From positions 124,001 to 188,000 of the forward strand of contig UCHD01000009.1 in assembly GCA_900472175.1 (NCBI GenBank): a stretch of 64,000 nucleotides of DNA, in the 5' to 3' direction. The DNA comes from Hyphomicrobiales bacterium (GTDB taxonomy: Bacteria; Pseudomonadota; Alphaproteobacteria; Rhizobiales; Rhizobiaceae). The translations under genes and the position numbers were made by a program. Shown here one piece after another: positions 41,556 to 62,056 of the stretch. Within the stretch, counting starts at the first letter, position 1; every line of letters begins with the position of its first letter. The notes under the pieces were generated by a model. The model searched no databases. It was not told the DNA's origin and saw nothing but the letters and a program-made list of their open reading frames with translations.

Positions 41556-42749
41556 TCAAGCCGCTGCGGCCTTGCGATCGACGATTGCCTTGGCCATACG
41601 CCGTGCGTCGCCGTCAATGGCAAAGACGTCGTCCATGGCAGATGCCGCAGGCGCCGTGATCATCGCCTCCATCACGGTCTCGGTTATTTCCGCCATCTGC
41701 AGGAAACCGACATGTCCGCCGATGAAGGCCTCCAGTGCCACTTCCTTGGCGGCATTTAGGATTGCACTCTGCATGCCGCCGCGCTCCATCGCCAGCCGGG
41801 CGAGGCGCAGCGCCGGGAAGCGCTCTTCATCCGGAGCTTCGAAATCCAGCCGCGATAGTTTTGCGAAATCCAGCCGTTCGACGTCGAGCGCCGGCCGCGC
41901 CGGATGCGATAGCGCGTAACCGATGGCTGTGCGCATGTCCGGGCAGCCGAGCTGCGCCAGCACTGAGCCGTCGCTATAGCCGACCATCGAATGGATCACC
42001 GATTGCGGATGGACGATGACTTCAATCTGGTCCGGGCGCATGCCGAACAGATGCTTGGCCTCGATCATCTCGAGCGCCTTGTTGAACATCGAGGCGCTGT
42101 CGATCGAGATCTTCAGGCCCATCGACCAATTGGGGTGGGCGCGGGCCGTGGCGGCGGTGACATCGCGCATCTCGGTAAGCGTCGAGCGACGGAAGGGGCC
42201 GCCGGAGGCGGTGAGGATGATGCGCTCGACGGCATGGCGCTGATGTTCTTCCAGCACCTGGTAGATGGCGTTGTGTTCGCTATCGACCGGCAGCAGCTTG
42301 CCGCCACCGGCATGAACGGCGCGCACGAAAAGATCTCCGGCCGAAACCAGGCACTCCTTGTTGGCAAGCGCGATATCAGCGCCGCGCCGCGCCGCAGCCA
42401 ACGTTGGGGCAAGACCTGCCGTGCCAACAATGGCGGCCATCACCCAGCCCGCATCACGCTGCGCCGCTTCGATCAGTCCGCTACGGCCAGCGGCGGCTTC
42501 AATGCCGGTGCCTGCCAGCGCTGCCTTGAGGTTTTCGTACTGGCCTTCATCCGCCGTTACTGCGAGTTCGGCGCCGGTCGCTTTTGCCTGTTCGGCAAGC
42601 AGTGCCACATTGCCGTTGCCGGTCAACGCGGCGATATCGAAGGCTTCGCGTCCGCCGAGTTGGCGGATGACGTCGAGTGTGCTGGTGCCGATCGAGCCCG
42701 TCGAGCCCAGAATGGTCAAGCGGCGTTTGCCTTGCGCGCCGGAGGTCAT
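41556..42749 (-). CDS. dxr: 1-deoxy-D-xylulose-5-phosphate reductoisomerase
   Basis: NADPH-dependent second enzyme of the non-mevalonate isoprenoid pathway, about 397 residues. Visible: the N-terminal NADPH loop ILGSTGSIGTSTLDV, VDSEHNAIYQ with the metal and substrate residues, LTASGGPF and the SIDSASMFNKALEMIEAKHL segment. The start MTSGAQGKRR has GGGA 7 bp upstream; MKNKKQRDLA ten codons earlier is possible. Stands alone, convergent with the serine hydrolase gene 7 bp away. Confidence 0.93.
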   Translation of the reverse strand: MTSGAQGKRRLTILGSTGSIGTSTLDVIRQLGGREAFDIAALTGNGNVALLAEQAKATGAELAVTADEGQYENLKAALAGTGIEAAAGRSGLIEAAQRDAGWVMAAIVGTAGLAPTLAAARRGADIALANKECLVSAGDLFVRAVHAGGGKLLPVDSEHNAIYQVLEEHQRHAVERIILTASGGPFRRSTLTEMRDVTAATARAHPNWSMGLKISIDSASMFNKALEMIEAKHLFGMRPDQIEVIVHPQSVIHSMVGYSDGSVLAQLGCPDMRTAIGYALSHPARPALDVERLDFAKLSRLDFEAPDEERFPALRLARLAMERGGMQSAILNAAKEVALEAFIGGHVGFLQMAEITETVMEAMITAPAASAMDDVFAIDGDARRMAKAIVDRKAAAA

Positions 42750-42917
42750 GGCCAAGTCCCGTTGTTTTTTGTTTTTCATGGTAGGCTCTACAGGTGAAAG
42801 TGGATGCCAACAAGGGTAGCTTCGCTCCGGGTGGGAGCGATAGGGTCGCAGGTGCTGCGAATCACTGGCCGCTGCTCCTGGGGCAGGGGCAGTTTTTTGC
42901 CGGAAAGGATGTTCCCA

Positions 42918-43683: not shown

Positions 43684-45081
43684 TTACCCGCGCGCCGCCA
43701 GCCTTGCCCATTCCTGCGCCTGGTGGCGATAGGTTGCGCCCGGATGCGGCGCGGCAAGCCGTGGGCTTTGGCCGAACAGCTTTTCACGCAGGGTACCCTT
43801 CGCATAGTCCTTCTTGTAGACGCCGCGTTTCTGCAATTCCGGCACCAGCAGGTCGACCGCGTCCTCGAAGCTTTCCGGCGTCACCGCATAGGCGAGGTTG
43901 AAGCCATCGACATCGGTATCCTCGACCCACTCCTGCAGCAGGTCGGCAACTGTCGAGGGCGAGCCGACAAAGACCGGGCCGAAACCGCCGATGCCGACCC
44001 AATCGGCCATTTCCCGCACGGTCCAGACCTTGCCGGGGTCGATCGTGGTGAACGTCTCGACCGCCGATTGAACCGCATTGGTGTAGCGATGACGCAGTGG
44101 CTCGTCGGGTGCGAATTGGCCAAAATCGATGCCGGTCCAGCCGGAGATCAGGGCTTGTGCACCCTCGTAAGAGACATATTTCCGGTAATCGTCGAACTTC
44201 TTCTTCGCTTCGGCATCGGTTTCGCCGAGGATGACGGTCTGCAGGTTGAAGGCAAGGATCTTTCTGGGATCGCGGCCGGCCTTTTCGGCGGCCTCACGGA
44301 CATTGGCGACGTAGCGTTTCAAAACCGGCTTGGAGGGTGCGGCGACGAAGATGCACTCGGCATGGGCGCCGGCGAAATCCTTGCCGCGGCTTGATGCGCC
44401 GGCCTGATAGAGCACCGGCGTTCGCTGTGGGGATGGCTCGCTCAGGTGAATGCCAGGCACGGTGAAATGCTTGCCCGCGTGATGGATCGGATGAACCTTT
44501 TCCGGGTGGGTGAAGATGCCGCTGTCGCGTTCGCGCACCACCGCGTCCTCCTCCCAGCTACCTTCCCAGAGTTTGTAGCAAACCTCGAGATATTCCTCGG
44601 CCAGATCATAGCGATCGTCATGGTTGGTCTGGTTTGCCTGGCCGATGTTCTGGGCGCCGCTGTTCAGATAGGACGTGACGATGTTCCAGCCGACGCGCCC
44701 TTTGGTCAGGTGATCGAGTGTCGAGATGCGGCGGGCGAATGTGTAGGGATGTTCGAAGGAAAGGGATGCCGTCAGGCCGAAGCCGAGATGTTCGGTGACA
44801 TAAGCCATGGTCGGCACAAGCTGCAGCGGGTCGTTGACCGGCACCTGGGCCGAGTGGCGCAAAGCCGCATCGACATTGCCGTTCAGCACGTCATAGACGC
44901 CGAGAACATCGGCGAGGAACAGGCCATCGAACTTGCCGCGCTCAAGGGTCTTTGCCAGATGCACCCAGTAGTCGAGGTCCTTGTATTTCCATGACTGGTC
45001 GCGCGGATGCCGCCAGAGGCCCGGCGACTGGTGTCCGACGCAGTTCATGTCGAAGGCGTTCAGCCTGATTTCGCGGCTCAT
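43684..45081 (-). CDS. FMN-dependent monooxygenase of the NtaA/SnaA/DszA (LLM) family
   Basis: A 465-residue bacterial-luciferase-like flavin monooxygenase. The N-terminal pattern MSREIRLNAFDMNCVGHQSPG, then FDGLFLADVLGVYD and GRVGWNIVTSYLNS, are hallmarks of the NtaA/SnaA/DszA branch, which oxidises aminopolycarboxylates or cleaves sulfones using FMNH2 and O2. It is the last gene of a minus-strand operon with a CUT2 ABC importer, beginning 21 bp after a permease gene. With two DszC/SfnB-like genes nearby, an organosulfur substrate is likely. No flavin reductase gene was seen close by. Confidence 0.85.
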   Translation of the reverse strand: MSREIRLNAFDMNCVGHQSPGLWRHPRDQSWKYKDLDYWVHLAKTLERGKFDGLFLADVLGVYDVLNGNVDAALRHSAQVPVNDPLQLVPTMAYVTEHLGFGLTASLSFEHPYTFARRISTLDHLTKGRVGWNIVTSYLNSGAQNIGQANQTNHDDRYDLAEEYLEVCYKLWEGSWEEDAVVRERDSGIFTHPEKVHPIHHAGKHFTVPGIHLSEPSPQRTPVLYQAGASSRGKDFAGAHAECIFVAAPSKPVLKRYVANVREAAEKAGRDPRKILAFNLQTVILGETDAEAKKKFDDYRKYVSYEGAQALISGWTGIDFGQFAPDEPLRHRYTNAVQSAVETFTTIDPGKVWTVREMADWVGIGGFGPVFVGSPSTVADLLQEWVEDTDVDGFNLAYAVTPESFEDAVDLLVPELQKRGVYKKDYAKGTLREKLFGQSPRLAAPHPGATYRHQAQEWARLAARG

Positions 45082-45102
45082 GTTCGTTTCCTTGTGTAGA
45101 TG

Positions 45103-46092
45103 TCAGGCCTTACGCCGGGTGATGAAGCTCAGGGCCAGCACGGCGAAGATCAGCAGGCCGGTTCCGACCTGTTGCCAGTAGAAATTCAACCCGGTGAGCA
45201 GCAGGCCATTGGCGACGATGCCGAGCAAAAGCACACCAAGCACGGTGCCGGGGATATTGGGGCGGCCAAGCCTCGAGAGCGTCGTGCCGATGAAGGTGGC
45301 GCCGATGGCATTGAGCAGGAAGGCGCTGCCGGAGGAGGGGATGTAGACGGTGACCGTCGCCGACAGGATCAGCCCGGCGACCGCAGCGATCAGGCCGGCG
45401 AGAATGAAGGCCACGGCCACATGGGCACGGGCCGCAATGCCGGAATAGCGCACGACGCTCGGCTGAATGCCGATGGCGAGCGCGACACGGCCGAAGCGGG
45501 CGCGGGTGAGGACCACGGTTGCACCAACGATGATGATGGCGGCGATGATAAGCGGAACCGGAATGCCGCCGATCGCGCCGCGTCCGAGAAAGCGAAAAGC
45601 TTCGGGAACGCCCGATGGTGGCAGATAGACCGGGTTGCCGCCATTGGTCAGAAGCTGCTGGATGCTGCGGCCGATGAAGAGCGTGCCAAGCGTGGCGAGA
45701 AACGGCGAAATACCGATGCCTGAAATCAGCACTGCATTGAAAGCCCCGACTGCTGCGCCAGCGCCAAGACCTGCCAAGGCTGCGACTGCGACGGGCTGGC
45801 CTGCGAGGACCAGGGAAACAAAGGCGAAGCTGGCGAAATCAATGGCCGTGCCGACCGACAGGTCGATGCCGCCAACCGAGACGGCAAAGGTCATGGCAAT
45901 GGCGGCGATAGCGAGCAGCGTAAAATTGTTGACGAGAATGCTCTGCAGGTTGGCGATGGTCAGAAACGTCGGGGTCGCGAAGGAGAAGATCGCAAACACC
46001 GTGACGAGCGCCAGCACGAGTGCGTTATCGACGACCACGCCGATGAGGGCGCGGGGGACGGACGGTTCGATTGCGGAGGTCTGCAGGGTCAT
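45103..46092 (-). CDS. CUT2 (ribose-type) ABC transporter permease, first system, subunit 2
   Basis: A 329-residue RbsC-type permease with about 8-10 helices. Typical segments are AMTFAVSVGGIDLSVGTAID, GISPFLATLGTLFIGRSI and the late GRPNIPGTVLGVLLLGIVANG. It starts 2 bp after the other permease gene. Two different permeases in one system suggest a heterodimeric channel. RbsC-family members normally carry sugars, but the genetic partners here are flavin monooxygenases. Confidence 0.88.
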   Translation of the reverse strand: MTLQTSAIEPSVPRALIGVVVDNALVLALVTVFAIFSFATPTFLTIANLQSILVNNFTLLAIAAIAMTFAVSVGGIDLSVGTAIDFASFAFVSLVLAGQPVAVAALAGLGAGAAVGAFNAVLISGIGISPFLATLGTLFIGRSIQQLLTNGGNPVYLPPSGVPEAFRFLGRGAIGGIPVPLIIAAIIIVGATVVLTRARFGRVALAIGIQPSVVRYSGIAARAHVAVAFILAGLIAAVAGLILSATVTVYIPSSGSAFLLNAIGATFIGTTLSRLGRPNIPGTVLGVLLLGIVANGLLLTGLNFYWQQVGTGLLIFAVLALSFITRRKA

Positions 46093-46094
46093 GA

Positions 46095-47112
46095 TCAGGC
46101 CTCCTGCCTGCGCAGCAATGTCGTTGCCGAAACGACGAGCAGGATCAGCAGACCCTGGACGCCGCTCACCAGCACGCTTGAAATGTTGAGAAGCTGGAAA
46201 CCGTTGACGAGGAAACCGACGAACAGGGTGGATAACAGCGTGCCGATGACCGTCGGCACCAGCCGCCGCGAGAAGACGGAGCCGAGCAGGGCCGTGACCA
46301 CCACCGGCAGCAGCATTTCGCCGGAGCCGGTGGTGCTGCCGCTGAGATTGGAGACCGACAAAATGCCGGCAAACCCGCCGCACAGGCCGCTGGCGATGAA
46401 GGCGCCTGCGACCAGCCGGCGAACCGGCAGGCCGGCCGCGCGGGCCGCATCGGGAAACTCGCCGACGGCGTAGAGCTGGAGCCCGGCCGAAGTGTATTGC
46501 ACGATGGCTGCAGCAATCAGCGTGAAGACCAGCAACACATAGGCGAGCGCCGGAATGCCCAGAGGCCCGGATGAGGACAGAGCCGTCAGCAGCGGCGTCG
46601 AGGCGGGAATGACGGTGTTTTGCGTCAGCACCAGTTCGAGGCCGGCGACGATGTTCATTACGGCAAGCGTTGCAAGCAGCGGCACGATGCCTGCAACGAC
46701 CACGGCGATGGCATTGACCGCACCGATCAGGAGGCCGGTGAGGAGGGCGGCTGCGACTGCCGTTGCATCGCCATAGCCGAGTTGCGCTGCCGTCGCATAG
46801 ACGGCAGCGCTCAGGCCCATATTAGCGGCGAGCGACAGGTCGATGCCGCCGGTGACGACGTTGGAGCCACCGGCGATCAGCACGATGGTCAGGCCGATGG
46901 CCAGAACGCCTGATATCGCCGACTGGCCAAGCACGTTGCCGATATTGCCGACGCTGAGAAAGTAAGGTGCCGTCAGTGAAAAGACGAGCAGGATGGCAAC
47001 GAAGGCTACCAGCGATCCGGCGCGAAGGGCGCTGGCCGCGAGATTTCCACTCCGGCTCGGCTTGGACGTCGATACGCCCGGTTCAAAATGGATGACGGGG
47101 GCAAGCTGGATA

Positions 47113-47123
<11 letters not shown>
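46095..47123 (-). CDS. CUT2 (ribose-type) ABC transporter permease, first system, subunit 1
   Basis: A 342-residue RbsC-type permease with an N-terminal polar extension. Core segments: GLTIVLIAGGSNVVTGGIDL, GIVPLLATLAVMNIVAGLEL and RLVPTVIGTLLSTLFVGFLV. The start MSVDIQLAPV overlaps the upstream ATPase gene by 11 bp, indicating translational coupling. The open frame extends 28 codons upstream inside the ATPase gene without a ribosome site. Confidence 0.88.
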
Positions 47124-48651
<1,528 letters not shown>

Positions 48652-48730
48652 GACATGTTTGTCCTGCTGATCGGCCCGTGTGGAATGGCGATCCGGTATC
48701 GGTCCGGATCGCCCTGAAGACATGTTGATG

Positions 48731-49741
48731 TCAGCCGATGCCGAGCTTCTTGGTGACTTCGTTGACATTTGCCTTGTTGGCGATCAGCGCATGCACGTAG
48801 GTTTCACGCGGAAGTGTCTGGCCGGCGAGCAGCCTGGCGACATTCTGGATTGCCGTGCGGCCGATTTCGGCCGGCTGCTGCGCGACATCGGCACCGGCCG
48901 GCGAATTCGGATCAGCAACGAGTTGCAACACTTCCGGGCTGCCATCGACGCCGTAGGTGAGAATTTCGGTACGGCCGGCAGCGGCCACCGCCTGGGTGGC
49001 GCCGAGTTGCGGGATATCCCAGGCCGACCAGATCGCCTTGATCGAGCCCTTCTCCGGGTATTTGTTGAGAAGTGCTGTGATCTGCGTGAACGCGTCCTGA
49101 ACCGTGTTCGGGATGACGTCGCGCAATTCCGGCTCAAGGATTTTGACCTTGGGGAAATATTTGACGACATTGACCAGCTGGTCGTAGCGGATGGCGCAGG
49201 GCGTCACGCCGTAAAAACCGTTGAAGACGACGATGTTGCCTTCGCCGCCGATATCGGAAACCAGCTGCAGCGCCAGGTCCTTGCCGATGCCCCAATTGTC
49301 GGAGGTGGTGTTGTTGATCGAATTGGTCGAACCGACATCGACGGTCAGGACCGGAATGCCCGCGTCGCGCGCCTTTTTCAGCCAGGGATCGATGACGCTG
49401 AGCGTTCCAAGGATCTGGACGATGGCATCCGGCTTCTGGGCAATCAGCGTTTGCAACTGCGATACCAGCTTGCCGTCGTTGCGCCCTGCATCCACAGCAA
49501 TCGGCTCACCTCCGAGGCGCTTCACTTCCTCGATCTGGGCATTGTAGGCCTGAAGGTCGAAGAAGTGATCGGTGCCGGTGGCGCTGATGGCGATACGCTT
49601 GCCTTTCAGCGAGAGTTCACCTTCCGCCGCCGCTGTCCGGCTGCCGATAAGGCTGGCTCCGGCAATGGCCGCACCAGCGACTGCCGAGAGTTTCAAAAGG
49701 TCACGGCGGCCAACGCCCTGCGCCGGTTTATCCTGTGTCAT
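48731..49741 (-). CDS. CUT2-type periplasmic binding protein with Tat signal, first system
   Basis: A 336-residue RbsB/Peripla_BP_4-type binding protein. The N-terminus has a twin-arginine signal (GRRDLLKLSAVAGAAIAGAS, cleavage near TAAAEG), so it is exported folded, unusual for this family. The core shows KRIAISATGTDHFFDLQAYN and NWGIGKDLALQL. First gene of the operon binding protein-ATPase-two permeases-LLM monooxygenase. A TCTATAGA element lies 23 bp upstream of the ATG. The ligand is unknown; sulfur compounds are suggested by context. Confidence 0.87.
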   Translation of the reverse strand: MTQDKPAQGVGRRDLLKLSAVAGAAIAGASLIGSRTAAAEGELSLKGKRIAISATGTDHFFDLQAYNAQIEEVKRLGGEPIAVDAGRNDGKLVSQLQTLIAQKPDAIVQILGTLSVIDPWLKKARDAGIPVLTVDVGSTNSINNTTSDNWGIGKDLALQLVSDIGGEGNIVVFNGFYGVTPCAIRYDQLVNVVKYFPKVKILEPELRDVIPNTVQDAFTQITALLNKYPEKGSIKAIWSAWDIPQLGATQAVAAAGRTEILTYGVDGSPEVLQLVADPNSPAGADVAQQPAEIGRTAIQNVARLLAGQTLPRETYVHALIANKANVNEVTKKLGIG

Positions 49742-49764
49742 GGTCAATCCCCGTTTAAATAATA

Positions 49765-49772
49765 TCTATAGA
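49765..49772. promoter_or_regulatory. CTATAGA element before the first-system binding-protein gene
   Basis: TCTATAGA, a perfect palindrome in an AT-rich stretch, 23 bp upstream of the minus-strand ATG. Related elements occur at 52434, 52667, 56586 and 58128, all before genes of this cluster. It could be an operator or a -10 region used by a dedicated regulator. Confidence 0.5.
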
Positions 49773-49834
49773 ATAGGTGTATTATGCGGATTGCCGAGGA
49801 AGAAATTTCCAAAGATGGAACAGCGGCCGGAAAA

Positions 49835-49858
49835 CTTGGGCTGGGAAGTTACCCAGCC
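49835..49858 (-). terminator. Hairpin after the second-system permease gene
   Basis: GGCTGGG and CCCAGCC form a 7-bp stem; on the minus strand AAGTTTT follows. It separates the second ABC operon from the first-system operon downstream. Confidence 0.6.
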
Positions 49859-49886
49859 GGGCGAAATCGCAGCCGGCGGGGTCATG

Positions 49887-50933
49887 TCAGGGGGAGGGAC
49901 TGCGAACAGTTCCGTAGGTCAGCGCCAAGGCGCCGACGAGGACGGCGCCCTTGACGAAATCCTGCGTGTAATAGGGCGCGTTGAGCATGGTCAGGCCGTT
50001 GAGCAGAACGCCGATGAAGACGGCACCGACGATGGTGCCGAGAACATTCGGCCGCCGCTTGCCCAGCACTGCGAAGCCGATCAGGGCGGCAGCGACAGCA
50101 TCCATCAGCAACGAGCCGCCGGAGGAGACGTCGCCGCGCCCGACGCGGGCAGCAATAACGATACCGCCGAGCGAGGCAAGCGTGCCGGAGATCACATAGG
50201 CAAGCATCTTCAGCCGCGCCGTCGATGCACCCGCCAGCCGCGTCGCCACCTCATTGCCGCCGGTGGCAAACAGCAAGCGGCCGATGCGGGTCCGCTCCGT
50301 CAGCACGAACAGTGCAATGGCGACGAGAGCCATCAGCACGACGGAAACCGGGACGATACCGGCGAGGCTTGTGCGGCCGATCAGGAGAAAGGCGGGATCG
50401 TAGGCGCCGGTGGCGGTTGTGCCGTCCGGGAGGATCAGCCCGGCTGAGATCGAGCGGCCAGCAGTCGGGATCAGTTGCAGGCCGGATAGCAGGAACATTA
50501 TCGACAGCGTGGCCAAGAGATCGGGAACCTTCAACCGGACGATGAGGAAGGCGTTGACGAGGCCGATCAGCGCTCCGAAGGCAAGCACCAGCGGGACGGT
50601 GGCAATGGCACCGAGCCCCCAGACGATCATCGCATAGCTGGCCGCCATGACGCTGGAGGCGGCTATCGCGCCGATCGACAGATCGAAGCCGCCGACGGCG
50701 AGCGTCACGGTGACGCCTGCACCGAGAATCGCGACGACGGCCACGGCCTGCAGGATGCTCATCAGGTTGCCGAGATTGGCGAAGGCGGGCTCGGCGGCAG
50801 AGAAGCCAAAAAGCAGCGCTGCCAGAAGAATGAAGACGGCGCCCGATCGCAAGGCCGTACCGAGGTCTGCAAGCCAGCCAACCCGGTTTGCGTTGCGTTG
50901 TACCGGAGCGGCTTCGTCAATGGTCGATGTCAT
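49887..50933 (-). CDS. CUT2 (ribose-type) ABC transporter permease, second system
   Basis: A 348-residue RbsC-type permease: GVTVTLAVGGFDLSIGAIAA, KVPDLLATLSIMFLLSGLQL and RPNVLGTIVGAVFIGVLLNG. Its start overlaps the ATPase stop by 4 bp (ATGA). Only one permease exists in this system, so it should act as a homodimer, unlike the first system. Confidence 0.88.
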   Translation of the reverse strand: MTSTIDEAAPVQRNANRVGWLADLGTALRSGAVFILLAALLFGFSAAEPAFANLGNLMSILQAVAVVAILGAGVTVTLAVGGFDLSIGAIAASSVMAASYAMIVWGLGAIATVPLVLAFGALIGLVNAFLIVRLKVPDLLATLSIMFLLSGLQLIPTAGRSISAGLILPDGTTATGAYDPAFLLIGRTSLAGIVPVSVVLMALVAIALFVLTERTRIGRLLFATGGNEVATRLAGASTARLKMLAYVISGTLASLGGIVIAARVGRGDVSSGGSLLMDAVAAALIGFAVLGKRRPNVLGTIVGAVFIGVLLNGLTMLNAPYYTQDFVKGAVLVGALALTYGTVRSPSP

Positions 50934-52411
50934 GCGTGGATTTCCTCGGAAAGACCGCCGCGCGCGGCGCCGGGCGCTGCGGCAAGGCTGTGGTGGTCGA
51001 TGATCAGAATGCGGTCGGCAACCTCGTAGGCTTCTTCCGGGTCGGAGGTGGCGATCAGGGTGGCACGGTCGCTGCGGCTGCGGATCGCCTGGATGATATC
51101 GTGACGGGCGCCGACATCGACGCCTTGAAAGGGTTCGTCGAGCAGCAGAAGCCGGCTCGGTTCGGCTTCCCAGCGGGCCAAAACCACCTTTTGCTGGTTG
51201 CCGCCGGAAAGCGAGGTTATCGGGGCCAGTGGTCCGGATGCCTTGATGCGCAGGCGGTCGATTGCCTGTTCGGCCTCGCGCCGTTCACGGCCGCCAAACA
51301 GCAGGCCGCGCGGATACCATTTGGAGAGGTGTGGCAGGCTGATGGTGGCCGCCAGCGAACTTCCCGGCCAATCGGCTGGCATCAAGGAAGAGCGGTGCCG
51401 GTCTTCTGCGGCCATGGCGACACCGGCGGCAATCGCCTCTGCCGGTGTTTTCGGCCAGTGCCGGCGGCCGTCCAGATACATCTCTCCGGCGGCAAGGCGG
51501 CCGTTGCCGAAGATCGCGGAGAGCAGACGGCTCTTGCCGGCCCCCAGCACACCAGTGATCGCCACCACCTCGCCGGTGTGAACGGTGAGATCGAAAGGAA
51601 GGGAGCCGGGCAACAGCCGCGCGTCGCGCATCTCGAAGACCGGCGGCCCTTCAGGCGCGCGAATGCCGGGCCGGGCCGATTGCAGCTTGCGGCCGATCAT
51701 CGTTTCGATTGCCGCATCAAAATCGATCGGACGTTCAAAGGCACCGGCGACCGTACCGCCGCGCATGACGAGCACCCTGTCGGCAATTGCCTGCAGATCG
51801 GCGGTTCGGTGCGAAATGTAGAGAATGGCAAGGCCGCCATCGCGCAGACGCTTGAGAATATCGAACAGGCGCTGGCTTTCGGCAATGGAAAGGCTGGCGG
51901 TCGGTTCGTCGAGGATCAAGAGGTCTGCCCGGTTGGCGAGCGCGCGGGCTATGGCCACCAGTTGCCGGTCTGCTGCGGTCAAGTCGGCGAAGTCCCGGTC
52001 CAGCGGCAGATCGAACCCGGCGATGTCGAGGATCGCCTGGGCTTGCCGGTTGACGCTGGACCGGGAGACGAAGAAGGGCTGGCCGCGCTGGCAGAAGCGC
52101 GTCAGCAACAACGTATCTGCAACGGTGAGACCGGCAGCGCCGACCAGACCGGTCGATTGATGGACGGTAACGACGCCTGCAGCGGCGGCCTCTGCGGGCG
52201 AGCGCGGGGCATAGGTCCGGCCGTTCAGCGTGATTACGCCGCTATCGGCGGGCAACACTCCGGAGAGGATCTTCACCAGTGTCGATTTTCCGGCGCCGTT
52301 TGCCCCCATCAGCGCGACGATCTTGCCTGCAGCGATTGTCAGCGACGTGTTGACCAGCGCGCGCGTGGACTGAAAGCTGCGGCTGAGCGCATCGACGTGA
52401 AGCAGGGGCAT
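50930..52411 (-). CDS. CUT2 ABC transporter ATPase, second system (two fused ABC domains)
   Basis: A 493-residue RbsA-like protein. Domain 1 has GANGAGKST, a degenerate signature DLTAADRQ, LILDEPTASL and ISHRTAD. Domain 2 has GVLGAGKSR, LSGGNQQKV and LLLDEPFQGVD. It diverges from its binding-protein gene across 362 bp holding two CTATA-type elements, one 27 bp before this ATG. Confidence 0.88.
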   Translation of the reverse strand: MPLLHVDALSRSFQSTRALVNTSLTIAAGKIVALMGANGAGKSTLVKILSGVLPADSGVITLNGRTYAPRSPAEAAAAGVVTVHQSTGLVGAAGLTVADTLLLTRFCQRGQPFFVSRSSVNRQAQAILDIAGFDLPLDRDFADLTAADRQLVAIARALANRADLLILDEPTASLSIAESQRLFDILKRLRDGGLAILYISHRTADLQAIADRVLVMRGGTVAGAFERPIDFDAAIETMIGRKLQSARPGIRAPEGPPVFEMRDARLLPGSLPFDLTVHTGEVVAITGVLGAGKSRLLSAIFGNGRLAAGEMYLDGRRHWPKTPAEAIAAGVAMAAEDRHRSSLMPADWPGSSLAATISLPHLSKWYPRGLLFGGRERREAEQAIDRLRIKASGPLAPITSLSGGNQQKVVLARWEAEPSRLLLLDEPFQGVDVGARHDIIQAIRSRSDRATLIATSDPEEAYEVADRILIIDHHSLAAAPGAARGGLSEEIHA

Positions 52412-52433
52412 GAAAAAAGCAATCCAATATTCT

Positions 52434-52444
52434 TATAGTCTATA
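52434..52444. promoter_or_regulatory. ATAG-T-CTAT element before the second-system ATPase gene
   Basis: TATAGTCTATA is a perfect odd palindrome. On the minus strand it reads TATAGACTATA, with TATAGA 27 bp upstream of the start codon, the same arrangement as at 58128. Confidence 0.5.
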
Positions 52445-52666
52445 TAATTTGTCATATATTTTCCGCTGGTGACAGCCAGGCTGGCGGAACAGCTTTGCGA
52501 AGTACCGGCTGAGCCGGTAATTTCTTTGCGGCAGGATGGGCTCCGGCAGAACGTTCGCGCCAGCTGGGCTACCTGTCCCCAATGCGCCTGTGCTTCGGTA
52601 GGACTTTGCCGTGGAGGCCAGTTCCCGTGAAACAGGTTTCTCTCCAATCCGGAAAAATGGCACTAA

Positions 52667-52677
52667 TTAGTCTATGA
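52667..52677. promoter_or_regulatory. Related CTAT element before the second-system binding-protein gene
   Basis: TTAGTCTATGA shares TAGTCTAT with the elements at 52434 and 58128 but is less symmetric. It lies about 100 bp before the + strand binding-protein gene. Confidence 0.35.
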
Positions 52678-52773
52678 AATTTATGGATTGAATATCTAAT
52701 AAGTATTGCGTCCCGAGGAAGGCTGGCTGCTTGCCGGTGACGTGTCCAATTGTCTTCAGAAGGAACGCTTTTT

Positions 52774-53820
52774 ATGAAAACCATTCTCCGTCTGGCGGCA
52801 ACCGCCGCCTTCATTCCCTTCCTGTTCGTCTCGGCTGCCAAGGCCGATGGTGTTGCCGGTGCACCGGCGCCATTCGACAAGGGCGGCGTCAAGCTGGCAT
52901 TGATCAGCTACATTTCCACCGGTGACTTCTTCCAGGCCTATCAGGCTGGCGCCGAGGCGCAGGCAAAGGCGCTTGGTATCGATCTGCGGGTCTTCCCCGG
53001 CCGCCAGAATGCAGCGGAACAGCGCGAACAGATCCTGCAGGCGATCAATCTCGGCGTCGAAGGCATCGTCATCGACCACGGTGTTCCTGAATCACTTGCT
53101 GATGTCGTGCAGCAGGCGTTGGACAAGGGCATCAAGGTCGTCGCCTTCGACGTCAATCTCAACAATCCGAAGGTGCCGCAGGTCGAACAGAGCGACCACG
53201 CCTTGGCAAAACAGGCGCTTGAGCAGGCGGTCAAGGACAACGGCACCAGCTTCACCGCCGGTTACGTCTATGTCGCCGGCTTTGCGCCGCTTGATCGCCG
53301 CAACGAGGTCTGGGACACGTTCAAGGCGGAGAACAAGGGCGTCGTCGAAAAGGCGCGCTTCGGCAATGTCAGCGATACGACAGCCACCACAACGGCCGAC
53401 CAGGCGAAGGCGGCACTGCGGGCCAATCCGGATATTACCGTGGTTTTTGCCCCCTATGACGAATTTGCCCGTGGCGTGAAGCTGGCGGCGGCCGATCTCG
53501 GCATCGCCGACAGGCTGAAGATTTACTCGGCCGATGTTTCCACCGCCGATATTCAGGAGATCGTCGAGGAGGGCAGCCCCTGGGTCGCTACGGTCGCGAC
53601 CAATCCAGCCGTGGTTGGCGCGGTCTCGATCCGCGCGGCTGCGCTTGAAATTGCCGGACAGGACGTTCCCCGCCAGATCACCGTCGAGCCGACGCTGCTG
53701 ACCCAGAAAAGCCTGAGAGACGCCGGCGTCAAAACCATCGAGGAACTCGCCGCCAAGATCCCGGCCTTCAGCGCCAGCGATGCGGTCACGGCAAACTGGA
53801 TCCCGGCCAAGCTGTTCTGA
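52774..53820 (+). CDS. CUT2-type periplasmic binding protein, second system
   Basis: A 348-residue RbsB-type binding protein with a Sec signal (MKTILRLAATAAFIPFLFVS, cleavage near AKA). The core includes FPGRQNAAEQREQILQAINL and GIVIDHGVPESLADVVQQAL. The start at MKTILRL has AAGGA upstream; the frame extends eight codons further. It is followed after 71 bp by an SfnB-type oxidoreductase on the same strand, linking uptake with oxidation. Confidence 0.87.
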   Translation: MKTILRLAATAAFIPFLFVSAAKADGVAGAPAPFDKGGVKLALISYISTGDFFQAYQAGAEAQAKALGIDLRVFPGRQNAAEQREQILQAINLGVEGIVIDHGVPESLADVVQQALDKGIKVVAFDVNLNNPKVPQVEQSDHALAKQALEQAVKDNGTSFTAGYVYVAGFAPLDRRNEVWDTFKAENKGVVEKARFGNVSDTTATTTADQAKAALRANPDITVVFAPYDEFARGVKLAAADLGIADRLKIYSADVSTADIQEIVEEGSPWVATVATNPAVVGAVSIRAAALEIAGQDVPRQITVEPTLLTQKSLRDAGVKTIEELAAKIPAFSASDAVTANWIPAKLF

Positions 53821-53837
53821 TCCTTTGCATTGTAACG

Positions 53838-53859
53838 GCGGAGCCGCTTGTGGCTCCGC
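53838..53859 (+). other. Intercistronic hairpin between binding-protein and SfnB-type genes
   Basis: GCGGAGCC and GGCTCCGC form a perfect 8-bp stem, then a pyrimidine-rich run (TATCCTTCTTTT). It may act as a partial terminator that keeps binding-protein mRNA in excess. Confidence 0.55.
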
Positions 53860-53891
53860 TGCTATCCTTCTTTTAGAACTGGAGCGTTCCC

Positions 53892-55103
53892 ATGAGCCAA
53901 TCCAACGTCGTCTATGCAACCGGCCTCGGCGTCACGCGCGACAGCCTGTTTGCCGGTGCTGCCGAAATCTCCCACGATCTGTCGCTGCACGCAGCGGACC
54001 TTGACAGGGAAGGGCGCCCGCCGGTCGGCGAGATCGTCAAACTGAAGAAGGCCGGCCTGCTCAACGCCCTGCATGCGCGTGAGATTGGTGGTGGCGGGCT
54101 GAATTGGGTCGATGCGCTGAAGCTCGTTCGCATCCTGGCACGAGGCGAAAGCTCCATCGGCCAGCTGCTCGGCTACCACTATGTCAACAGCCAGTCGATC
54201 TACTGGTCGTTTGCGGATCAGGCGCGGGCGCAGGTGCTGGGCGCTGAGACCGTGGCTCAGAATCTCTACTGGGGTGCGGCGGTCAACCCGCGCGACGCCG
54301 GCCTGACATTGACGCGCCGTGGTACCGGTTACGTGCTGAACGGCCGTAAATCCTTCTCCACCGCCGCCCGGGTTTCCGACTATATCAATGCCAGCGCGAC
54401 GCTGGAGGACAAGATCGCCAATTTCGCCGTGCCAACTGATCGTCCAGGCTATGTCGCCAACGACGACTGGGACAATATCGGCCAGCGACTGTCGGATTCA
54501 GGCAGCGTCGAGTTCCATGACTTTCCGGTCTATGATGAGGATTTCATCGCGCCACCTGCCGATGAAAATGCGGCGCTACCGGCTCTGGCAACGTTCAATA
54601 CGCCGCTGATTCAGCTGGTCTTCGTCAATTTTTATCTGGGCGCCGCTGAAGGCGCGCTGGCTGCCGCCATCGATTATGTCCGCACCACCACCCGCCCCTG
54701 GGTGACGTCGGGTGTCGAGCGTGCGGCCGACGATCCGTATATTCTCGAACGTGTCGGCGAATTCACGGCTGCGCTGAAGGCCTCTGCGGCTCTTGCGGAC
54801 AGTGCAGCCCTGGCGGTGCAAACGGCCCTTTCGAAGGGACGGGATGTGACCGCGCGCGAACGCGGCGAGGCGGCGGCTGAAGCTTACGCTGCCAAGGTTC
54901 ACGCCACCCATGTCGCCCTCGATATCACCGCGCGCGTTTTTGAGGTGACCGGCGCCCGGTCAACTGCCGAAAAATACCGGTTCGACCGCTTCTGGCGTAA
55001 TGTCCGAACACACACGCTGCACGATCCGGTGTTCTACAAGGCGAAGGAAGTTGGCGAGTTCGTGCTGAACGATAAAATCCCGGTGGTGAGTTTGTACAGC
55101 TGA
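53892..55103 (+). CDS. SfnB/DszC-type flavin oxidoreductase (acyl-CoA dehydrogenase fold), copy 1
   Basis: A 403-residue acyl-CoA-dehydrogenase-fold protein. The C-terminal FWRNVRTHTLHDPVFYK is the signature of the SfnB/DszC branch, whose members use reduced flavin and O2 to oxidise sulfur compounds and do not dehydrogenate acyl-CoA. GTGYVLNGRKSFSTAARVSD marks the middle beta domain. It is cotranscribed with the second-system binding protein. Its relative across the terminator (55302) is similar but not a recent copy. The exact substrate is unknown. Confidence 0.85.
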   Translation: MSQSNVVYATGLGVTRDSLFAGAAEISHDLSLHAADLDREGRPPVGEIVKLKKAGLLNALHAREIGGGGLNWVDALKLVRILARGESSIGQLLGYHYVNSQSIYWSFADQARAQVLGAETVAQNLYWGAAVNPRDAGLTLTRRGTGYVLNGRKSFSTAARVSDYINASATLEDKIANFAVPTDRPGYVANDDWDNIGQRLSDSGSVEFHDFPVYDEDFIAPPADENAALPALATFNTPLIQLVFVNFYLGAAEGALAAAIDYVRTTTRPWVTSGVERAADDPYILERVGEFTAALKASAALADSAALAVQTALSKGRDVTARERGEAAAEAYAAKVHATHVALDITARVFEVTGARSTAEKYRFDRFWRNVRTHTLHDPVFYKAKEVGEFVLNDKIPVVSLYS

Positions 55104-55211
55104 GCACGCCCCTGTGCGGTGGATTTGGCCTTTCGGGCCGTCATCCGTTTCATTGCAGGCCCACGCGGTGTTACGTGCATCGGCATCGTTTGAGCATGGT
55201 AATATTCATGC

Positions 55212-55245
55212 AAAAGCCCTCCTGGTTCGGCCAGGAGGGCTTTTT
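55212..55245. terminator. Bidirectional terminator between the two SfnB-type genes
   Basis: AAAGCCCTCCTGG, loop TTCG, then CCAGGAGGGCTTTTT, a 13-bp stem with U-runs on both strands. The two convergent oxidoreductase genes both end here. Confidence 0.92.
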
Positions 55246-55301
55246 GTGGTGGTTTGGAGCCAGCTTCGCTTGGGTTTGTCCGGATGTGAAGAGCCTCAGC
55301 C

Positions 55302-56519
55302 TCACAGTGCTCCATTCTTCGGTGGCGCCACGCCGTTCAAATGATAATTGCCGACGACATGGGCCTTCCAGCGCACCGGATCGTGCAGCGTATGGGTGCG
55401 GGCATTGCGCCAGTGGCGGTCGAGATTGAGGCCAATGCGGGTGGCCGAGGTGCCCGCGAGTTCAAACAGGGTGGTGGAGGCGGCAAGCGCCACTTCGGTC
55501 GTCAGTACCTTTGCGGCGGCGACCGAGAGAGTGGCGTCGACAACATTGGCCCCGGTCGCGTCCATCTGGGCAACATCGACCTTGCGGCCGGCCCGTTCGA
55601 TCAGGGCCGCAGCCGCCTCTATCTTGATGGCGATCTCGCCGATCCGGGCGATGGTCAGCGGGTCGTCTGCGGCGCGGTCGACGCCTGAATCCTTCCACGG
55701 GCGGCTCTGGGTGCGGACGAAATCCAGCGTCTCGGCAAAGGCGGCACGGGCGATACCGAGATCGACACCGGCATGGATGATCTGGCCGACCGAACCGATG
55801 GTGGTCGGCCGCTCAAAGCCTTTGTGATGGAAGACGATGGCATCGGCATTGACATAGACATTGTTGAAGATGGTGGTGCCGCTGCCGGTGGTGCGCTGGC
55901 CAAAGCCATCCCAGTCATCGATGATCTCGATACCCTCAGTGCCCTTGGCGACGAAGGACATGGTCAGCCGATCCTCGGGATCGAGCGCGAACACGGTGAT
56001 CCAGTCGGCGAAGAGGACACCGGTCGAATAGAATTTCCGGCCGTTGACCCGGTAGCCCGGTCCTTCCGGCGTGATGCGGGTATTGTAATCGGCCACCGTC
56101 TTGGTGCCGCGTTCGGAAAGCGCGTTGCCGAAACGGTCGCCCGCCAGTGCGCGGCCGAAGAAATAGCGCTTCTGTTCCTCGCTACCGTCTACCCGCAAGG
56201 CTTCCAGAATGTAGAAATGGTTTTGTGGAATCTGGCCGATCGACGCATCCGCCTCCGACAGGATCGCGGTCACTTCCGCAAGCACCGCATTGGACACATC
56301 CAGCCCGCCATATTCGGCGGGAACGGTAATCGCCAGAAGCCCGGACTCGGCGATCGCCTCGAGTTCGTCATAGGGCAGGGTGCGGTTGGCATCGCGATCG
56401 GCGGCTCGGGTGGCGAAATCGGCGGCCAGTGCCCGGGCAGTTTCGATGGCTTCGAAATCGCTGCGGAGGCGACCGGCCGTTTGTTTGACGATTGGCTGAT
56501 ACTGCAGGATGGTTTCCAT
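55302..56519 (-). CDS. SfnB/DszC-type flavin oxidoreductase (acyl-CoA dehydrogenase fold), copy 2
   Basis: A 405-residue relative of copy 1 with LPYDELEAIAESGLLAITVP and PAEYGGLDV in the helical domain, GYRVNGRKFYSTGVLFADWI in the beta domain and HWRNARTHTLHDPVRWK at the C-terminus. The SfnB family acts in sulfur acquisition from sulfones and related compounds. The start METILQYQP is chosen because GGAG lies 6 bp upstream; an ATG 12 bp earlier overlaps that site. A TCTATAGA element lies about 67 bp upstream. Confidence 0.86.
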   Translation of the reverse strand: METILQYQPIVKQTAGRLRSDFEAIETARALAADFATRAADRDANRTLPYDELEAIAESGLLAITVPAEYGGLDVSNAVLAEVTAILSEADASIGQIPQNHFYILEALRVDGSEEQKRYFFGRALAGDRFGNALSERGTKTVADYNTRITPEGPGYRVNGRKFYSTGVLFADWITVFALDPEDRLTMSFVAKGTEGIEIIDDWDGFGQRTTGSGTTIFNNVYVNADAIVFHHKGFERPTTIGSVGQIIHAGVDLGIARAAFAETLDFVRTQSRPWKDSGVDRAADDPLTIARIGEIAIKIEAAAALIERAGRKVDVAQMDATGANVVDATLSVAAAKVLTTEVALAASTTLFELAGTSATRIGLNLDRHWRNARTHTLHDPVRWKAHVVGNYHLNGVAPPKNGAL

Positions 56520-56585
56520 CGCACGCTCCATTTTTTGTACGGACCATGGGTGGAAGAAGTCGGGCGGAAAGATAAGATTATAATT

Positions 56586-56593
56586 TCTATAGA
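56586..56593. promoter_or_regulatory. CTATAGA element before SfnB-type copy 2
   Basis: TCTATAGA, identical to the element at 49765, in AT-rich sequence about 67 bp upstream of the minus-strand start. An AAGAAAAG/CTTTTCTT inverted repeat lies just upstream at 56605-56621, at the end of the preceding gene. Confidence 0.5.
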
Positions 56594-56619
56594 TCGAGTG
56601 GACTAAGAAAAGTCTTTTC

Positions 56620-58104
56620 TTAAAGTGGGTTTTGCGCCGTCTTTGGCATTTGTGACCGCAAGCATTCGGCGATCCGGGTTGCAACGAACACGGCATGGTC
56701 GGTTACCTGCGGCAGGCCCATCAACTCGCCGAACGTGCCGCGTGCCAGCGGTCCGGCGATCAGCAGGGATGGTGTCACGCCCGCCACCGGCCCGATGGCT
56801 TCCGAGTTTCGGGTGCAGGACAGCCCAAGGCCGGTCGGATCGAGTTCCAGATAACCGTTGTGCGAGAGTTCGGCGAGGAAAGGCTGGCTCGCGAGGATGC
56901 CGCCATGGCCGGGACCGGTGGTGACGACGACGGCGTCATAGCTTTTCTCGACGGTGCCGGGACACCGCCGCAGGCGTAGCGCGCAGTGGATCGCACCCGC
57001 CTCGACATGAGTTGCCGCAATCGACCCGGCGAGGATTTCAAGGCGCCCTTCGGCAATCGCCGCATCAAGGGCAGCTTCCACCTGCGGCGCGACGCGGAAA
57101 CGGTGTACATCCCAGAATGGACGCAGATGCCGGACGATGCGCTGCCGTTCCTGCAGCGGCAGAACCTGCCACAGCGCCTGTCCCTGCGCCCGGACCTGAT
57201 CGATGACGCCGTGCCAGGTCCGGCCATCCAGAGCCGCTTGCCGGATAGTGTGGCGGATGTTTCTGAGCAATGTCCGTGCCGTGAAGGCCGGTTCCGTCAG
57301 GAAGTCGCCGGCGGGGTCCTGCGCCACCGGCGCATGGCCACGCGAGCGCAGTCCACGCCGTGAAACTGCGGTGATCGGGCCAGTGTGGCCTTTGAGGGCG
57401 AGGGCCGCGATCACATCGGCGGAGGTGAGGCCATTGCCGACGACAAGCACCCGGTCCGAGGGGCGTATGGCTGCGAGCGCACCGGCTTTGGTTGGGTCGG
57501 GCACGAACCGGGGATGATCTTTCAGCACGGCTTGAAGCTGGCCTGGAGCAACCGGCGGCGGGTGGCTGGTGGCAATGACGACGATGTCAGCCTTGGTCTG
57601 TGCGCCATCGTCGTCGTTGATCGACCAGTGCGCCCCATCGCGCAGGACATGGGCGACGGTGCTGCGCCGATGCTGAACGGCGCCGCTGGCGACGAGTGGC
57701 TGCAGCATGGCATTGACATAATCGCCAAACACGCTGCGGCGTGGAAACAGCGCGCCGTCAGGCCGCAGGGCCTCGTCATCGCCGGCCGTCGCAGAATGTG
57801 CCGTGATCCAGCGTAGAAAATGATCCGGTTCGTCGGTCAGCAGGCTCATGCGCGCGGCCGGAACGTTGATGCGGTGGGCGTGTTCGGCCGTGTCGTAGGC
57901 GAGGCCTTTGCCAAGGCACTCGCGCGGCTCGAAGACGATGATTTCCGGTGCCGGAATCTGGTTCGCCAGTGCAAGATGAAAGGCTGTCGCTGCGCCCGAG
58001 ACACCGCCGCCGATAATGGCAACCACCGGCCGTTGCGAGGCCTTCGGCGCTCCGCTTGAGGCGGCACCGGACAAGGTCATCGGGTTGACGATCAACTGGT
58101 TCAT
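56620..58104 (-). CDS. FAD/NAD(P)-binding oxidoreductase
   Basis: A 494-residue two-dinucleotide-domain flavoprotein. The first Rossmann loop is VVAIIGGGVSGAATAFHLAL (about residues 27-46) and the second VLVVGNGLTSADVIAAL (about 218). It resembles uncharacterised FAD/NAD(P)-binding proteins (NAD_binding_9 type) that are often found with ABC transporters. It is the first gene of a minus-strand pair with SfnB copy 2 and has the cluster's CTATAGA-type element 28 bp before its ATG. It could supply reduced flavin or electrons or oxidise an intermediate; neither is shown. Confidence 0.8.
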   Translation of the reverse strand: MNQLIVNPMTLSGAASSGAPKASQRPVVAIIGGGVSGAATAFHLALANQIPAPEIIVFEPRECLGKGLAYDTAEHAHRINVPAARMSLLTDEPDHFLRWITAHSATAGDDEALRPDGALFPRRSVFGDYVNAMLQPLVASGAVQHRRSTVAHVLRDGAHWSINDDDGAQTKADIVVIATSHPPPVAPGQLQAVLKDHPRFVPDPTKAGALAAIRPSDRVLVVGNGLTSADVIAALALKGHTGPITAVSRRGLRSRGHAPVAQDPAGDFLTEPAFTARTLLRNIRHTIRQAALDGRTWHGVIDQVRAQGQALWQVLPLQERQRIVRHLRPFWDVHRFRVAPQVEAALDAAIAEGRLEILAGSIAATHVEAGAIHCALRLRRCPGTVEKSYDAVVVTTGPGHGGILASQPFLAELSHNGYLELDPTGLGLSCTRNSEAIGPVAGVTPSLLIAGPLARGTFGELMGLPQVTDHAVFVATRIAECLRSQMPKTAQNPL

Positions 58105-60620: not shown

Positions 60621-60772
60621 TCGTTCCTGAATACGGGATGAGTGTCAGCCGGCCTCCCGGTTTTATCTCTCGCAGCCGCGCAATTTTCGGATGAAAAAGC
60701 CGGAAGATTGGCAAGAAGCGGTGGCGAAAATTGATGTAGACTATGGCGGTCACACCCATCCCGGAGACCGCC

Positions 60773-62056
60773 ATGACCGCTCCACACCCCTCCAAGACCC
60801 ATATCGGCAATCATAAACTGCATCCTGAAACGCTGATGCTGAACTACGGTTACGATCCGGAACTCTCCGAAGGCGCGGTCAAGCCGCCGGTGTTTCTGAC
60901 GTCTACATTCGTGTTCAAGTCGGCCGAGGAAGGACGCGATTTCTTCGATTTCGTTTCCGGCCGCCGCGAGCCGCCAGCAGGGACCGGAGCAGGGCTGGTC
61001 TATTCCCGTTTCAATCACCCCAACAGCGAAATCGTCGAGGATCGCCTCGCTGTCTACGAGCGCACGGAAAGCTGCGCGCTGTTTTCTTCCGGCATGTCGG
61101 CGATTGCAACGACGCTCCTGGCGTTCGTCCGGCCGGGCGATGCCATCCTTCATTCGCAGCCGCTTTATGGCGGTACCGAAACGCTGTTGGCAAAGACCTT
61201 TCTCAACATGGGTGTCGCTGCTGTCGGCTTTGCCGATGGTGTCAACGAGGCGTCCGTGCAATCGGCGGCTGAAGAGGCGATGGCGAAAGGCCGGGTCTCG
61301 GTGATCCTGATCGAAACGCCGGCCAACCCCACCAACAGCCTCGTCGACGTCGCGATGATCCGCAAGATCGCCGATGCGATCGGCCGGAAACAGGGCCACA
61401 CGCCGATCATTGCCTGCGACAATACCCTGCTTGGCCCGGTCTTCCAGCGGCCGATCGAGCATGGCGCCGATATCTCGCTCTATTCGCTGACCAAGTATGT
61501 CGGCGGCCATTCAGACCTGATTGCCGGGGCGGCTCTCGGCGCAAAAGCGGTGATGAAACAGGTCAAGGCGCTGCGCGGCGCCATCGGCACGCAGCTCGAT
61601 CCGCATTCCTGCTGGATGCTTGGCCGGTCTCTCGAGACATTGTCGATCCGCATGGAGAAGGCCAACAACAACGCGCTCGAAATCGCCAATTTTCTGAAGG
61701 ATCATCCGAAGGTCGCGGGCATTCACTATCTACCGTATCATGACCCGGCATCCGCCCTTGGGAAAACATTCGCGGCACAATGCAGCGGGGCGGGATCGAC
61801 CTTTTCCTTCGATATCCGCGGTGGTCAGCCGGCGTCCTTCAGGTTTCTCAATGCGCTGCAGATCTTCAAGCTGGCGGTCAGTCTTGGCGGCACGGAATCG
61901 CTGGCCAGCCATCCGGCAAGCATGACCCATTCCGGCGTGCCACTGGAGGTTCGCCAACGGATCGGGGTGCTTGAATCCACCATCCGCCTGTCGATCGGCA
62001 TCGAACATCCGGATGACCTGATCGCCGACCTGACAATGGCGCTGGATGCCGCCTGA
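60773..62056 (+). CDS. Cystathionine gamma-synthase family PLP enzyme
   Basis: A Cys/Met metabolism PLP enzyme of 427 residues. The PLP lysine is in [11 protein letters not shown] (Lys241); [21 protein letters not shown] and [13 protein letters not shown] are family segments. Members include cystathionine synthases and lyases, O-acetylhomoserine sulfhydrylase and methionine gamma-lyase, and the sequence alone does not decide among them. It starts at MTAPHPS with GGAG upstream. Location between the organosulfur cluster and a sulfatase gene fits sulfur metabolism. Confidence 0.86.

Follow-up and report, generated by a model that had tools for sequence, protein, structure and literature searches.

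A rhizobial gene cluster of two CUT2 importers and three flavin-dependent oxygenases as a candidate locus for scavenging sulfur from methylthio-sugars

What would two ribose-type importers do beside enzymes related to those that oxidize organic sulfur compounds? The question is raised by a stretch of 64,000 nucleotides from a Rhizobiaceae genome (Hyphomicrobiales bacterium, assembly GCA_900472175.1, contig UCHD01000009.1, positions 124,001 to 188,000; hereafter the window), in which positions 43684-58104 hold a cluster of 11 genes: a luciferase-like monooxygenase (LLM) of the NtaA/DmoA type, two group D oxygenases of the acyl-CoA-dehydrogenase fold, a flavin adenine dinucleotide (FAD) oxidoreductase and two CUT2 importers. 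An earlier note, made from the sequence alone, had proposed that these genes import sulfur-containing, possibly sugar-like compounds and oxidize them, a proposal supported here by the kinship of one importer to 5-methylthioribose (MTR) transporters and by the SfnB and LLM neighbors that recur beside such importers. We propose that the locus scavenges sulfur from methylthio-sugars: MTR or a close relative would be imported and oxidized and its sulfur released. We give this reading an even chance of being right. The substrate class is likely that of methylthio-sugars, more narrowly a methylthio-pentose, and the sulfur would, we infer, be released as sulfite or sulfate.

The cluster and its conserved core

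All 11 genes are long open frames lying where the earlier note had placed them, and family profile scores bear out their identities. From left to right, the LLM, the permeases P1a and P1b, ATPase A1 and binding protein S1 of importer 1, and the permease P2 and ATPase A2 of importer 2 occupy the minus strand; the importer 2 binding protein S2 and a DszC-like oxygenase diverge from them on the plus strand; SfnB and the FAD gene follow, again on the minus strand. P1a, P1b, and A1 follow one another closely, P2 shares 4 bases with A2, and 71 bases separate the end of S2 from the DszC-like gene in the window. Both importers have the PF02653 permease, double-domain ATPase and PF13407 binding protein of complete CUT2 systems, one with two permeases and a Tat-type binding protein and the other with one permease and a Sec-type binding protein, as had been claimed (signals judged by eye). 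PF02653 marks three permease places in the locus, the protein-level scan with this profile covering P1a and P1b. The parts are of known kinds, and their combination of importers with flavin oxygenases seems to be undescribed; a literature search, with most subscription papers outside its reach, found no description of it.

Relatives were obtained by scanning public genomes with the DszC-like protein, the best 80 of 124 being taken as loci; nearly all are titled Rhizobium, Pararhizobium or 'Rhizobiales bacterium', and they come mostly from one genus and are not independent. Across these loci S2, the DszC-like gene, SfnB and usually LLM recur. In the 79 loci that cover this place (L040 begins at the DszC-like gene), S2 always precedes the DszC-like gene by 62–189 bp, and the spacing persists even where A2-P2 is gone. 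At identities of at least 60%, SfnB is found in 75 of the 80 loci, LLM in 64 (at least 80% identical in all 64; the L057 copy has an in-frame stop) and the FAD gene in nine. Among the 16 loci without LLM, eight end too soon (six of the L034 type, L040, and L065), five have neither importer, and the others are L021, L023, and L024. Both importers are present in 37 loci; 24 have P2-A2 alone, 12 have the S1 cassette alone and five have neither, the upstream side being uncovered in two. Since importer content varies while S2, the DszC-like gene, SfnB and LLM recur, the core consists of these four (LLM usually), the two importers are interchangeable modules, and the FAD gene is optional.

Importers and their relatives

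S2 (52774..53820, plus strand), a PF13407 protein, starts probably at the ATG at 52774 within an open frame spanning 52750-53820, and carries a Sec-type leader, MKTILRLAATAAFIPFLFVSAAKA, judged by eye. Its best structural match is 4RY8, an MTR transporter protein, and in the tree it groups within the clade of 4RY8 and mtnK-linked MtrB, which makes it an MtrB-type binding protein. On this evidence, from a tree that covers the binding proteins, importer 2 belongs by sequence to the MTR importer family. The MtrC-type permease P2 (49887..50933, minus strand; NCBIfam CUT2 matches and a PF02653 place) has homologs of 45–56% identity beside mtnK in L130, L132, L133, L142, L143, and L144, and the MtrA-type ATPase A2 (50930..52411, minus strand; NCBIfam matches across both halves) has homologs of 42–45% identity adjoining mtnK in the first five of these. 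No mtnK stands beside importer 2 itself; the sole mtnK match of the genome is on another contig, next to a paralogous importer. That place (L130, contig C13) is an MTR locus, with an MtrB/C/A-type importer, mtnK and then a RuBisCO-like protein (PF00016), and by eye also an mtnA-like gene and two transketolase-like halves.

In predicted MTR importers a COG5276 gene, mtrY, usually comes after the binding-protein gene (PMC3228920, in excerpt). A tblastn search of the window with an mtrY-like protein found no such gene, and importer 2 thus lacks this neighbor. In six of the 80 loci (L034, L044, L047, L058, L073, and L076) a second S2 paralog has an LVIVD-repeat mtrY-like protein as its neighbor (two were scanned and score 42–44 bits with PF08309), and an mtrY-like gene of 70–72% identity accompanies S2-type proteins in L124–L127 and L129, not in L121–L123. 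An Ensifer locus (L183) has an mtrY-like gene (87% identity) in one row with an S2 paralog, P2, A2, S2, the DszC-like gene, LLM and SfnB, and L175/L163 combine an mtrY-like gene with LLM genes, two SfnB-like genes, the FAD gene and importer 1, without S2.

In importer 1, S1 (48731..49747, minus strand, PF13407) bears the twin-arginine stretch GRRDLLKLSA at its start, judged by eye, and has as best PDB match 4WT7 (Avi_5165, 580 bits), a structure with allitol bound (PMC10318746, in excerpt). The double-domain ATPase A1 (47113..48651, minus strand; two ABC_tran stretches) gives its best NCBIfam matches, none of which reaches cut-off, with ATPases for sugars (AraG, xylose, RbsA), and the permeases P1a (45103..46092, minus strand, ATG at 46092) and P1b (46095..47123, minus strand) score 102 and 81 bits with PF02653. 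A structure model of S1 was too weak (predicted local distance difference test, pLDDT, 54) and was left out of fold searches. Relatives of S1 at E 1e-70 or better occur at 14 places in 13 of 297 genomes of the order. At nine of the places the identity is at least 69%. In six of these, genes of the LLM or DszC/SfnB type lie no further than about 10 kb away: the window, L171, L160, L162 (which has the binding protein but no A1/P1 matches), L163, and L138/L169 (about 7 kb off). The other three, L159, L161, and L170, have none of these genes within about 10 kb. In L166 importer 1 is convergent with an S2-type importer.

Each importer recurs beside SfnB-type or LLM enzymes in other families, and such associations are seen in L131, L136, L160, L162, L163/L175, L182, and L183. 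L136 unites relatives of the FAD gene (57%), LLM (65%), the DszC-like gene (72%) and SfnB (75%) with P1a, P1b, and A1. The annotated Shinella row (L182) runs FAD oxidoreductase, LLM, an acyl-CoA dehydrogenase (71% to the DszC-like protein), SfnB, an importer with one binding protein and two permeases, then a second LLM and a second SfnB, both confirmed by profile scan, and a MetQ-type gene. L160, from another family of the same order, has importer 1 with an LLM (64%) and an SfnB-like gene (33%). L131, which shares only the phylum, has in one row SfnB (652 bits, above cut-off), an SfnB-like protein (182 bits, below it), S2 (66%), A2 (52%), P2 (57%), an SsuB-like protein (219 bits, cut-off 395) and an SsuA-like protein (163.0 bits, cut-off 163.5). 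L131 and L160 are the most independent signs that these importers may serve sulfur compounds. In R. johnstonii 3841 the plasmid pRL9 carries the oxygenases together with importer 2 and, beside glpK, the orthologue of importer 1 (RL_RS26290-26305; binding protein 91% identical). By gene count from pRL90074, a glycerol gene taken as the annotated glpD, that binding protein is pRL90085. The CUT2 protein pRL90085, of unknown solute, is induced in the legume rhizosphere, and its mutant has a colonization index of 0.52 (PMC3333776, in excerpt).

A proposed oxidative route and its competitors

The LLM (43684..45081, minus strand) had been called DszA/NtaA-type. Its NtaA/DmoA membership stands (TIGR03860, 578 bits, cut-off 279.7), and it is nearer to dimethyl-sulfide monooxygenase (6AK1, its best PDB match, 557 bits) than to the DszA-type 5TLC (248 bits) or NtaA (3SDO, 188 bits). 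It is not an SfnG dimethylsulfone monooxygenase by TIGR04021 (71 bits, cut-off 383). The two proteins described as SfnB/DszC-type do share the RTHTLHDPV motif, and one is SfnB (55302..56519, minus strand; start corrected to near 56519-56531 instead of 56696), with 594 bits to TIGR04022 (cut-off 430.9) and DszC (189 bits) and MsuC (185 bits) as best PDB matches. The other, the DszC-like protein (53892..55103, plus strand), is neither SfnB nor DszC by curated cut-offs (NF043015, 292 vs 850 bits; TIGR04022, 251 vs 430.9 bits); its PDB scores are 268 bits with DszC, 267 with 8cda, 245 with MsuC and 53 with the sugar N-oxygenase-type DnmZ. Across the genome the SfnB model exceeds 240 bits at only two places, both in this locus, the next being 102. 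The FAD/NAD(P)-binding oxidoreductase (56620..58104, minus strand; PF13454, 116 bits) had been rightly recognized; it would be an accessory, with relatives also in L163/L175 (47%). No PF01613 flavin reductase was found near the locus, consistent with the earlier note, other reductase families being outside the search; four lie elsewhere in the genome. SsuD is encoded elsewhere as well (G000:C48; TIGR03565, 611 bits, cut-off 518.2).

From gene content, families, synteny and phylogeny we propose the following ligands, reactions and order of steps. S2 would capture MTR or a close 5-alkylthio-pentose, imported by A2-P2 or another CUT2 permease, and importer 1 (S1-A1-P1a-P1b) might bring in a related polyol-like compound. 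The DszC-like enzyme, a putative thioether/sulfoxide oxygenase, would take the thioether to the sulfoxide and the sulfone with reduced flavin mononucleotide (FMNH2) and O2, for which the stepwise oxidation of dibenzothiophene sulfur by DszC is a model. The DmoA-type LLM, a group C FMNH2-dependent enzyme, would cleave the C-S bond to methanesulfinate and a sugar aldehyde; SfnB may act in the remaining S-oxidation, possibly from methanesulfinate to methanesulfonate as MsuC does, and SsuD would then yield sulfite. Reduced flavin could be supplied from elsewhere, for example by one of the four PF01613 proteins. In the available portions of the cited work, Dms1-3 oxidize dimethyl sulfide (DMS) in Acinetobacter, group D enzymes act on DMS and dimethyl sulfoxide (DMSO), and a single reductase serves the entire DMS pathway (PMC13352529); MsuC converts methanesulfinate to methanesulfonate, and the sfnAB pair is called uncharacterized (PMC8234197). 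Speculatively, the allitol bound by the S1 relative might mimic a compound such as 5-methylthioribitol, which has a chain of equal length and the same ribo-type hydroxyls. The wider proposal of a new sulfur-assimilation route, with CUT2 uptake of plant- or microbe-derived MTR and a related methylthio-polyol or oxide and desulfurization by the DszC-like, DmoA-like and SfnB trio in parallel to methionine salvage, we hold tentatively, at somewhat short of an even chance.

Several observations weigh against the scavenging of methylthio-sugars. An mtnK route for MTR is already present in the genome. S2 and the mtnK-linked group are fixed differently at 43 positions, of which 4RY8 shares 12 with S2 and 11 with the other group, so that the ligands of the two may differ. 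S2-type importers in L134, L135, L141, and L166 with L172 and L173 (S2 76% identical in this last set) have no mtnK and no LLM/SfnB/DszC/mtrY matches in the stretches examined. The closest solved relative of S1 binds allitol, which is no sulfur compound; at 43–59% identity none of the five places with S1 relatives has LLM or DszC/SfnB-type genes in the fetched stretch, and in L164, L165, L167, and L168 S1 relatives lie with kinase-, aldolase- and dehydrogenase-like genes (by eye). The second-best PDB match of the LLM is LadA (3B9N, 496 bits), and no group C enzyme oxidized DMS in Acinetobacter according to the available part of PMC13352529. Importer 1 has no LLM beside it in L021, L023, and L024, where META and P1a adjoin, SfnB is not in the available stretch of five of the 80 loci, and in five neither importer lies upstream.

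The main rival, which we consider unlikely, is a sulfur-starvation regulon in which imported MTR goes to MtnK and salvage and the oxygenases act on small sulfides (methanethiol, DMS, methanesulfinate) arising elsewhere, co-switching being what explains the clustering. The mtnK, RuBisCO-like and, by eye, mtnA-like and transketolase-like genes beside another MTR-type importer fit it, as do the resemblance of the LLM to DMS monooxygenase, the action of group D enzymes on DMS and DMSO noted above, and the importer modules that vary independently of the oxygenases. However, the close spacing of S2 and the DszC-like gene in 79 loci, even without A2-P2, suggests a shared substrate, and the mtnK-linked importer would already serve salvage. 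It is improbable, in our view, that the locus serves some other organosulfur compound (a sugar, polyol or glycoside that carries a sulfonate or sulfone group), S2 having drifted from MTR; the 43 fixed differences, the allitol in 4WT7 and the sulfonate-type (L131) or MetQ-type (L182) ABC neighbors would agree with this, but mtrY-like genes accompany some S2 loci, and in the pocket region S2 has D109, P113, F178, and T211 as in 4RY8 where the mtnK-linked group differs, four residues hand-picked among 43 positions that are even overall. That unrelated genes form a mosaic here, sugar importers of the ordinary kind next to oxygenases for carbon or nitrogen substrates, is very improbable: the genome has 40 PF02653 places, TIGR03860-type enzymes among the PDB matches include nitrilotriacetate, ethylenediaminetetraacetate (EDTA) and alkane enzymes, the 80 loci are mostly of one genus and a DszC-like match at E 1e-60 or better occurs in only seven of 297 genomes of the order (four of the seven at 74% identity or more), yet the SfnB-type/LLM association recurs in the seven settings named above, the DszC-like protein is nearest DszC and far from DnmZ, and SfnB matches DszC and MsuC best.

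Compared with the predicted MTR importer MtrACB and MtnK of the MetJ regulon (PMC3228920, in excerpt), the proposed methylthio-sugar unit has S2, A2, and P2 homologous to an mtnK-adjacent importer, an S2 nearest 4RY8 and mtrY-like genes in some loci, but flavin oxygenases replace MtnK/MtnA, S2 can persist without P2-A2, and a second CUT2 importer is added. It resembles the Dms/Msu/Ssu pathway of Acinetobacter and Pseudomonas (PMC13352529, PMC8234197, both in excerpt) in its group D oxygenases, group C candidate for C-S cleavage and genomic SsuD, and differs in its dedicated sugar-type importers, in a C-S step assigned to a DmoA/NtaA-type enzyme instead of SfnG and in having no PF01613 gene nearby. 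The 4S pathway (DszABC) likewise joins a DszC-type enzyme and an LLM, but here the DszC-like protein falls well short of the DszC cut-off and the LLM is nearer DmoA than BdsA; DszB was not noticed among the open reading frames of the locus, no DszB model having been run. The sulfo-SMO pathway for sulfoquinovose has a CUT1 importer and an SsuD-type enzyme; a sugar importer with an LLM monooxygenase in Rhizobiaceae is common to both, and CUT2 and NtaA/DmoA types take their places here.

Polyamine and ethylene synthesis yield MTR as a by-product. MTR is also excreted by E. coli (PMC3228920, PMC6302742, both in excerpt), and should therefore occur around roots. If the scavenging of methylthio-sugars is right, an oxidative MTR route would be an added sulfur source in soil sulfur cycling, common in Rhizobium and relevant in the legume rhizosphere. 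SfnB and the DszC-like group, flavoenzymes with no known substrate, would thereby gain one, and CUT2 importers of unknown specificity a candidate solute, among them the rhizosphere-induced importer 1 orthologue of R. johnstonii 3841. To our knowledge, the fates of MTR are salvage to methionine and shunts that split it.

Upstream repeat and surrounding genes

A conserved imperfect inverted repeat (consensus about TCTAYTAAA-N4-TAGA), possibly a regulator site, lies upstream of S2 at 52671..52687 (plus strand). Sites of at least 12 bits are found upstream of S2 in all 79 loci where S2 is covered, with a matrix built from the same loci, the window copy being the weakest (17.2 bits, median 33.0). 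Neither the mtn locus L130 nor the short ssuD locus L177 has a site of at least 8 bits, and a wider regulon can thus not be claimed. A sigma-54-like promoter pattern matched none of the 80 stretches upstream of S2. The repeat also occurs at six places in the 6.0–6.5 kb bin of the loci, about where the mtrY-side S2 paralog starts.

The gene adjoining the LLM (41556-42773, minus strand) encodes 1-deoxy-D-xylulose 5-phosphate (DXP) reductoisomerase and is so placed only in L021–L024 among the 80 loci. A second DXP reductoisomerase for an MTR-isoprenoid shunt was considered and rejected, since this dxr is the only match in the genome and is hence taken as housekeeping. On the other side, 2.6 kb past the FAD gene, lies a cystathionine gamma-synthase family gene (60743-62056, plus strand; NF005455, 801 bits, cut-off 504) preceded by a Kef-like gene (by eye), both being near the locus in five of the 80 relatives.

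Further LLM genes occur in related loci. In those of the R. leguminosarum type a second NtaA/DmoA-type LLM follows SfnB (L032:12653-14167, 553 bits, and 19 others; also L181:11829-13163); at the other end of the locus, the annotated L100 and L101 carry an ABC system of the peptide type along with a class V aminotransferase. Two genomes of family f50 (L138, L139) have a tandem LLM-DszC-LLM-DszC row beside GroEL-like and peptide-type ABC genes (by eye). Another Rhizobium cluster (L140:6390-13512, L185:8950-14481) alternates LLM and DszC-like genes of 33–39% identity and adjoins transport genes that look, by eye, sulfonate-type or peptide-type.

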